64,000 nt of DNA from Comamonadaceae bacterium (GTDB taxonomy: Bacteria; Pseudomonadota; Gammaproteobacteria; Burkholderiales; Burkholderiaceae_C). A program made the translations under genes and the position numbers. The stretch spans positions 1 to 64,000 of the forward strand of contig CANGNS010000008.1 in assembly GCA_947455465.1 (NCBI GenBank), read 5' to 3'. Under the pieces are notes generated by a model. The model had not been told where the DNA came from. It saw nothing but the letters and a program-made list of their open reading frames with translations, and did no database searches. This document shows positions 172 through 3,575 of this stretch, in pieces (position 1 is the stretch's first letter; the number at the start of each line of letters is the position of its first letter).

Positions 172-396
172 ATGGCCCAAGCAAACGAAACTAACCCGTC
201 TTTCATCTCGGATAGCCGTCTTAACGGCGATCGGCTGATGTTTGTGCTGGTCTTTTGTGTTTTCATGGCGCTCGCTGTGGTTGGACAGTTGCTGGCATTG
301 AATTGGCGCACCTGGCTACCTGGCGCGGAAGGATCGGCGACCACTTTGGTCGGCGTGAAATCTGCCGTGTATACCGTCATTTCTGGATTGAGTTAA
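172..396 (+). CDS. Small single-TM protein between pufB and pufA (possibly PufQ/PufX-like or LH-associated)
   Basis: 74-aa ORF with a good SD (cggaggt) 5 nt before ATG; one hydrophobic helix (LMFVLVFCVFMALAVVGQLLAL); no His in the helix, so not a standard LH alpha. Confidence 0.75.
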   Translation: MAQANETNPSFISDSRLNGDRLMFVLVFCVFMALAVVGQLLALNWRTWLPGAEGSATTLVGVKSAVYTVISGLS

Positions 397-1575: not shown

Positions 1576-2550
1576 ATGGCCCAATACCAAAACCTGTTTA
1601 CCTCTGTGCAGCCGGTCGGTCCGGCACACCACGGAGTCGATTTGCCACGCGGCGACGATAAGCGCACTGGCACTCCCTTCTTCCTGCATCTGCTTGGCCG
1701 CATAGGCAACGCACAAATCGGCCCCGTGTACCTGGGATCGCTGGGCGTAGCCTCGCTGGTCTTTGGCATGGCGGCGTTCAATATCATCGGGTTCAATATG
1801 CTGGCCTCGGTGGACTGGAACCCGATCCAGCTCGTGCGCCAGCTGTTCTGGCTGGCCTTGGAGCCGCCAGCGCCGGCCTACGGCCTGGGCATTCCGCCGC
1901 TGGCCCAAGGTGGCTGGTGGCTGCTGGTCGGCTTTATGCTGACCGTATCCATCTTGCTGTGGTGGGTCCGTACCTATCGGCGCGCGCGCCAGCTGGGGCT
2001 GGGCACGCATGTGGCCTGGGCTTTTGCTGCGGCGATATGGCTGTATCTGGTGTGCGGATTTTTCCGCCCCATCATGATGGGCAGCTGGTCCGAGGCGGTG
2101 CCGTTTGGTATCTTCCCGCACCTTGACTGGGTGTCTGCGCTGTCATTGCGCTACGGCAATTTGTTCTACAACCCCTTCCACGCCTTGTCCATTGTGTTCT
2201 TGTATGGCTCGGTGCTTCTGTTTGCCATGCACGGCGCGACGATTTTGGCGGTCAGCCGTTACGGCGGAGAGCGCGAGATTGAGCAAATTGTCGATCGTGG
2301 AACCGCTTCCGAACGCGCCGCCTTATTCTGGCGCTGGACGATGGGCTTTAACGCCACGATGGAGTCCATCCATCGCTGGGCCTGGTGGTTTGCGGTGCTC
2401 TGCCCTCTGGTCGGTGGCATTGGTATCTTGCTGACCGGCACTGTGGTGGACAACTGGTATCTGTGGTCGGTCAAGCACCATGTGGTGCCCGCGTACCCGC
2501 TGGGCAACCCGGTGGTTGTGGATCCGGCACTTCTGGGAGCAAAGCCATGA
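1576..2550 (+). CDS. pufM: Photosynthetic reaction centre M subunit
   Basis: 324 aa, RC-M family, directly after pufL. Confidence 0.98.
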
Positions 2551-3575
2551 AACTGACAACCAAACTTGGGCTATCACTGCTGGCCCCGCTGCTCTTAGGC
2601 CTCTTGGCGGGTTGCGAGCGCCCGCCGATTGACACGGTGCAAACCGGCTATCGGGGTACGGGTATGGAGCAAATCTACAACCCACGCACTTTGCTCAAAC
2701 AAGCCTCGCTGAACCAGGCGCCCGCGCCTGCCGATGCCGCTGCGGCGGACGGCCCTAAAGCCAGCCAGGTGTACCAAAACGTACAAGTGTTAGGCGATTT
2801 GAGCGTCTCGCAATTCAATCGCCATATGGCGTCCATCACCCAATGGGTGGCACCTGATGTCGGTTGTGCGTATTGCCATAACACCGAGAACTTTGCGGAC
2901 GACGGCAAATACACCAAAGTGGTGGCGCGGCGCATGATTCAGATGACGCAGCGTGTCAATCAGGACTGGAAGGCCCACGTGGCCGAGACCGGCGTGACCT
3001 GCTACACCTGCCATCGGGGCAACCATATCCCGACCAATGTGTGGTTTGCGCCTAAAGACCGCAAGTACGCCAACAGTGCGATGGGCGATCTGGCAGGCCA
3101 AAACCTGGCCTCTAAAGAAGCTGGCTTGACATCGTTGCCCTTTGATCCCTTCACGCCCTACTTGAAGGACGCAGCGCCCATCCGTGTGAACGGCAATGAA
3201 GCCATGGCCGGTATTGGTAATTACGCCAATCGGGCATCGCTCAAGCAAACCGAGCATACCTACTCGCTCATGGTGCATATGTCGGAATCTCTGGGGGTGA
3301 ACTGCACCTACTGCCACAACACGCGCAACTTCCAGTCTTGGGAGCAATCGCGTCCGCAGCGCGTTACAGCGTGGCATGGCATCCGCATGGCGCGTGACCT
3401 GAACAACGACTACATGGGCCCACTCACCGACAAGTTCCCGGCCGAGCGCCTGGGTCCCAAGGGCGATGTGGCCAAGGTCAATTGCACTACCTGCCACCAA
3501 GGCGCTTACAAGCCTTTGTATGGCGCCGCTATGGCCAAGGACTATCCTGAATTGCAATCTCTGGCCAAACCCTAA
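2547..3575 (+). CDS. pufC: Reaction-centre tetraheme cytochrome c subunit
   Basis: ATG at 2547 overlaps the pufM stop (ATGA); lipobox LLAGC; four CXXCH motifs (CAYCH, CYTCH, CTYCH, CTTCH). Confidence 0.97.

Follow-up and report, generated by a model that had tools for sequence, protein, structure and literature searches.

We analyzed a small open reading frame (ORF), ORF74, situated between pufB and pufA in a 64,000-nt stretch of DNA (the window) from a Comamonadaceae bacterium (contig CANGNS010000008.1, forward strand 1 to 64,000); all features given below lie on the plus strand. ORF74 (172–396) encodes 74 amino acids and is preceded by a Shine-Dalgarno (SD) sequence, GGAGGT (162–167, located by sequence inspection and SD scan), with the ATG 4 nt downstream. 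On one side is pufB (4–147), which encodes a short beta chain of light-harvesting complex 1 (LH1) of 47 amino acids with the C-terminus WRPWF and the bacteriochlorophyll (BChl)-ligating His retained (Pfam LHC, 7e-10; NCBIfam pufB, 5e-20), and on the other is pufA (412–600), encoding a 62-amino-acid LH1 alpha chain (Pfam LHC, 5.9e-6). Farther downstream are pufL (729–1556; PF00124, 2.8e-95) and pufM (1576–2550; PF00124, 5.8e-108), encoding the L and M subunits of the reaction center (RC), and pufC (2547–3575), assigned to a tetraheme cytochrome from its ORF translation, position and CxxCH heme motifs. An earlier, sequence-only reading of this DNA had the coordinates of the first three genes, the length and sequence of ORF74 and its strong SD exactly right. 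Our comparisons indicate that ORF74 is very probably a paralogue of LH1 beta without the pigment-binding His, and that it probably contributes to the assembly or the shape of the photosynthetic core complex.

The sequence-only reading suggested that ORF74 might be a new subunit, but the gene has appeared in the literature as an ORF of unknown function. The puf operon of Rubrivivax gelatinosus contains two such ORFs, one of which, ORF2, lies upstream of pufA (PMC12817894); according to the citation in that paper, it was first described by Nagashima in 1994. In Roseateles depolymerans, ORF74 (RD2015_RS05155) is located between pufB (RS05150) and pufA (RS05160), the three genes are co-transcribed as the major 1-kb puf transcript, they are the three loci that change most under carbon starvation, and all three fall to 0.7–2.3% in a sigma-factor mutant (PMC10037100). 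Judging from position, name and the 74-amino-acid family member that we found in R. gelatinosus DSM 1709 (locus L101), ORF74 of the window, ORF2 and ORF74 of Roseateles are the same gene. Published co-transcription, together with operon position and conservation, supports the earlier suggestion of an RC-LH1 accessory factor co-expressed with LH1. ORF2 was previously considered and rejected as a source of Gemmatimonas PufA2, being without the His and aligning poorly with alpha; it was aligned in that work with alpha chains only, at 10–14% identity to PufA2 (PMC12817894). The nature of ORF74 seems not to have been described before: what was known is the ORF, and what is new is its identity, distribution and evolutionary setting.

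Several lines of comparison place ORF74 with beta. All significant phmmer matches of ORF74 in the PDB were LH1 beta chains (best 5e-9), and a profile of the family recovered beta chains at 2e-14 and on down the list, and alpha never. Aligned by hhalign with beta of alpha- and gammaproteobacteria, the family gave a probability of 99 over 72 columns at 26% identity; against the alpha profile the value was 8.6, and a relation to LH1 alpha (PufA) was rejected on that account. The segment LALNWRTWLPGAEG, which the sequence-only reading had likened to the end of an alpha chain, resembles the end of a beta chain instead. A beta hidden Markov model (HMM) scored real ORF74 sequences at a median of 29.9 bits, while a single one of 110 window-shuffled controls exceeded 15 bits (16.1) and reversed sequences stayed below 4. 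ORF74 nevertheless falls under the cut-offs of Pfam LHC (10 bits vs. 23) and NCBIfam pufB (11.1 vs. 61), which fits its having stayed unnamed.

The profile match to beta extends over the length of the protein. A transmembrane helix is predicted at residues 21–44 (232–303), from alignment to the beta helix and from an AlphaFold2 model with a helix at residues 9–48 and a confidence score (pLDDT) of ~90 over residues 21–40. The WRxW belt is kept (W45 in 109/110 members, R46 in 107/110, W48 in 105/110), and A35, P50, G51, A52, E53, V62, V66, Y67 and S71 are likewise near-invariant. At the BChl-ligating column, His occurs in all 90 beta chains compared (86 short and 4 long), whereas among 110 ORF74 members 95 have Gln, 6 Thr, 5 Ser, 2 His, 1 Gly and 1 Leu, so that 108 lack the ligand. 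In the window the residue is Gln39 (286–288), in accord with the earlier observation of a missing His. The two His-bearing members are of Curvibacter type (L060:3001-3201 and L063:3001-3201), and the codon is one base from Gln; pigment binding might have been regained in them. The cytoplasmic GLTxxEAxEFH segment of beta is absent from the ORF74 alignment as well, its His column reading His in 8 of 110. The conserved C-terminal tail of ORF74, PGAEG...GVKSAVYT..S (319–393), is shared with the long beta chains of some Burkholderiales and missing from short PufB; the median identity of the tail is 40% with Burkholderiales long beta, compared with 21% for other beta chains and 10% for PufQ, and long beta of this order is nearest to ORF74 in the core also. 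The full AlphaFold2 monomer (helices 9–48 and 58–73, mean pLDDT 67, pTM 0.38) was uninformative, and a Foldseek search with it gave no PDB match. A plasmid collection yielded one weak Methylobacterium match, at a place with no annotated feature.

ORF74 is a real gene with good translation signals that is under purifying selection. Matches were obtained in 21 of 101 related genomes searched, of which 20 proved to be ORF74 in its pufB-pufA slot and the remaining one (L017) a normal long beta. A scan of GTDB genomes returned 306 relatives, and the best 80 of these were nearly all from Burkholderiales or betaproteobacterial metagenome-assembled genomes (MAGs), including Rhodoferax, Limnohabitans, Curvibacter, Polaromonas, Piscinibacter, Rubrivivax and R. 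gelatinosus DSM 1709. When gene order was surveyed by script over loci L001–L101 and L132–L178, the order pufB-ORF74-pufA held in 127/127 loci for which the script located the complete trio, with gaps of 17–48 bp before and 5–22 bp after ORF74 and an adjoining PufB that was always 47–50 amino acids long; some loci left incomplete by the script were cut at contig ends, and in L156 the pufB that it missed was intact on inspection. Length is exactly 74 amino acids in 116 of 136 members, the start is always ATG, and in 107 of 116 it is preceded by an SD match of 4 nt or more. In a close clade the median dN/dS was 0.17 for ORF74, 0.08 for pufB and 0.07 for pufA. The constant slot, length and dN/dS argue against a chance ORF. 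One could still imagine a decaying copy of pufB or a translational spacer with no role at the protein level, since the pigment ligand and N-terminal motif have been lost and the N-terminus evolves faster (pN/pS 0.34). However, the transmembrane helix and the tail are under purifying selection (pN/pS 0.20 for each), and fixed length, residues invariant across the order, and conserved start and SD signals speak against decay; we regard this explanation as practically discounted, and a chance or decaying ORF was rejected on conservation and selection.

The setting of the gene in its genome was recovered across an assembly break. The contig of the window starts 3 nt upstream of pufB. Over 121 bases its beginning is identical to the end of another contig from this genome, C26 (G000:C26:40853-40973), which carries bchZ, ending 145 bp upstream of pufB. 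This overlap gives the operon order bchZ-pufB-ORF74-pufA-pufL-pufM-pufC. The junction is a break within the photosynthesis gene cluster, and a related MAG (G004) is broken at the same point. In the window's genome, PF00556 (LHC) matches over the cut-off were confined to pufB and pufA; of the weaker matches one fell on the overlapping pufB copy and another was noise, and no LH2 (puc) genes were detected among PF00556 matches. The C-terminus of PufA, NAALPQK (580–597), fits the motif [A/S][P/A][LMI]P, which in Rhodopila is reported to make contact with the cytochrome subunit (PMC9640540).

The distribution of ORF74 was compared with those of long beta and PufQ in 49 phototrophic Burkholderiales, defined as PF00124-positive genomes and including that of the window; contig ends cut 4 loci, leaving 45 that could be judged. 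ORF74 lies between pufB and pufA, together with a short beta, in 37 of the 45, among them Rhodoferax, Limnohabitans, Polaromonas, relatives of Rubrivivax and R. gelatinosus itself, which bears out the conservation that the sequence-only reading had proposed to look for in such relatives. Five have a single long beta of 75–78 amino acids with a similar tail and no ORF74, and the other three, all from one genus (code g69; L140, L155, L159), combine a short beta with a PufQ-like ORF between bchZ and pufB and lack ORF74, forming a natural contrast group. Hence ORF74 and long beta occurred together in 0 genomes. Outside Burkholderiales, a gene between pufB and pufA was recognized in 0 of 31 proteobacterial puf loci, many of which have a long beta, and in many alpha- and gammaproteobacterial loci pufB is preceded by PufQ. 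No PufQ was found in the 145-bp bchZ-pufB gap of the window's genome or in any of 36 sampled Burkholderiales loci with ORF74; the two were never found together in sampled loci, and in 13 ORF74 genomes searched with a PufQ profile the best match was ORF74 itself, with no better PufQ elsewhere. Neither PufQ nor ORF74 was found in the 5 long-beta Burkholderiales and 2 gammaproteobacteria checked.

These patterns bear on the earlier proposal of a relocated PufQ-like factor, of which a distant PufQ relation has held up. An HMM built from 25 PufQ-like sequences scored ORF74 at a median of 24 and a maximum of 42 bits, and Burkholderiales long beta at a median of 37, far above window-shuffled ORF74 and beta (maxima 12–15 bits, that of ORF74 being 12) and PufA (maximum 6.6); five long-beta loci (L135, L151, L153, L163, L165) reached 47–54 bits. 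By hhalign, ORF74 and PufQ gave 97 over 66 columns at 14% identity, as expected of distant homologues, and PufQ and beta gave 95.7. PufQ (L179–L209, upstream of pufB) and LH1 beta look homologous over their whole length, PufQ being without the BChl-ligating His. PufQ, ORF74 and LH1 beta therefore look like one superfamily at the level of sequence. No statement of a beta-PufQ relation was found in the literature surveyed, and this homology is apparently undescribed so far; the only PufQ similarity mentioned there is with transmembrane helices of the RC (Bauer and Marrs, cited in PMC5725709). Profile searches advised by the sequence-only reading thus had a mixed outcome: PufX and PF05398 (PufQ) gave no match, the latter for the window protein, the R. 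gelatinosus member and two others, and LHC scored under its cut-off, whereas our own PufQ and beta HMMs do match.

Two explanations build on this relation. In the first, ORF74 would be a membrane-anchored biogenesis factor that replaces PufQ in Burkholderiales, steering porphyrin to bacteriochlorophyll or handing pigment to nascent LH1 without residing in the mature complex. The profile matches and complementary distribution favor such a role, as do equal size, a single transmembrane segment and the absence of His in both proteins, and branchpoint regulation in PufQ-less purple bacteria has been stated as an open question (PMC5725709). Yet a replacement is not required, since the seven genomes noted above have neither gene and Halieaceae and Sphingomonadales are reported to lack pufQ (PMC12654162); the ORF74 tail is much nearer to long beta than to PufQ, PF05398 does not match, and ORF74 sits among genes expressed at the level of LH1. 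We consider this explanation a serious but rather doubtful one. In the second, ORF74 would be pufQ itself, shifted into the pufB-pufA gap from its place before pufB. In a tree of 107 sequences, ORF74 formed one clade (100/100) and PufQ another (99/95), and a tree with both on one side outscored the free tree found by 4 log units, which, with the complementary distribution, is in line with relocation. Tree searching on 74 columns is unreliable, however, as two one-clade tests of the same split gave +4 and -20, so that the tree does not decide. Similarity at the level of residues favors Burkholderiales long beta, as do the tail and the PGAEG motif, and a tandem duplicate of pufB accounts more simply for the slot. 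Relocation of pufQ is consequently very unlikely.

We favor, at roughly even odds (about 0.5), the reading in which ORF74 is a tandem duplicate of pufB that lost pigment binding and now serves the core complex as a pigment-free, tailed subunit. An ancestral long-tailed pufB would have duplicated in tandem, the first copy becoming the short, His-bearing, pigment-binding PufB, and the second becoming ORF74, which would have kept the transmembrane helix, WRxW belt and periplasmic tail and lost the BChl-ligating His and cytoplasmic GLTxxEAxEFH. The 40% tail identity to Burkholderiales long beta makes this the simplest reading. Translated from the mRNA that also encodes LH1 alpha and beta, ORF74 would cross the membrane once, like beta, and dock through its tail on the RC-LH1 core, at or near a beta position, where it could set ring closure, quinone passage or the order of assembly. 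Homology, His loss, tail conservation, selection and operon slot were established here, and co-transcription and induction come from published work. Residence in the mature complex is favored by the shared mRNA and beta ancestry, as a PufQ-like role is by the PufQ relation and complementary distribution; as an extrapolation from sequence, we advance residence tentatively, at somewhat less than even odds. Several points weigh against it or against the duplication. No solved RC-LH1 chain in the PDB belonged to the ORF74 family in the profile search, proteomic detection was not found in the literature, and, to our knowledge, the core antenna of R. gelatinosus has been described as alpha and beta only. 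A grouping of ORF74 with PufQ was not rejected on the short alignment (p-AU 0.59). Moreover, the exclusion of ORF74 by long beta and by PufQ may reflect few independent evolutionary events, with only 2 usable pairs and a pufL tree too poorly resolved for counting gains and losses (one row, L149, being a broken outlier), and both patterns are leads rather than proof.

In a model purple bacterium this gene has for three decades been listed as an ORF of unknown function, and in Roseateles it is very strongly induced together with the antenna. If correct, its identity as a His-less beta paralogue gives it a concrete, testable role in the architecture or assembly of the core complex. That role would extend across a whole order of freshwater phototrophs, in which we found no core-complex structure. 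The beta-PufQ relation likewise offers a possible origin of PufQ and a candidate answer to how PufQ-less purple bacteria manage. A bolder version, in which ORF74 is a stoichiometric blank beta in the LH1 ring of most phototrophic Burkholderiales and PufQ an older His-less, beta-derived relative, is in our view unlikely; were it true, antenna polypeptides would have given rise to accessory factors at least twice.

Among known systems, ORF2 and ORF74 of the two cultured species share the pufB-pufA slot, and 74 amino acids fits the name, with no difference in kind. Long-tailed LH1 beta resembles ORF74 in its transmembrane core, WRxW belt, PG.EG...GVKAAV tail and pufA neighbor; unlike it, ORF74 has the His replaced (mostly by Gln) and GLTxxEAxEFH lost, and is present beside a normal PufB. 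PufQ is similar in its ~75 amino acids, single transmembrane segment, lack of a His ligand, puf-operon location and distant homology, but is encoded upstream of pufB, has an unlike tail and acts through ferrochelatase on the flux of tetrapyrroles. ORF74 gave no match to Pfam families such as PufX and gamma, which were set aside. The LH1 gamma and gamma-like polypeptides of Blastochloris and Rhodopila are, as ORF74 is proposed to be, small pigment-free transmembrane polypeptides serving the LH1 ring; they are short (22 amino acids in Rhodopila), oriented N-out and encoded outside puf, whereas ORF74 has 74 amino acids and lies inside it, and they are not known to be beta homologues. PufX, protein W and protein U (Y), whose genes are positioned differently from ORF74, are small transmembrane accessory proteins with an influence on ring shape and on the passage of quinones, as ORF74 would be.
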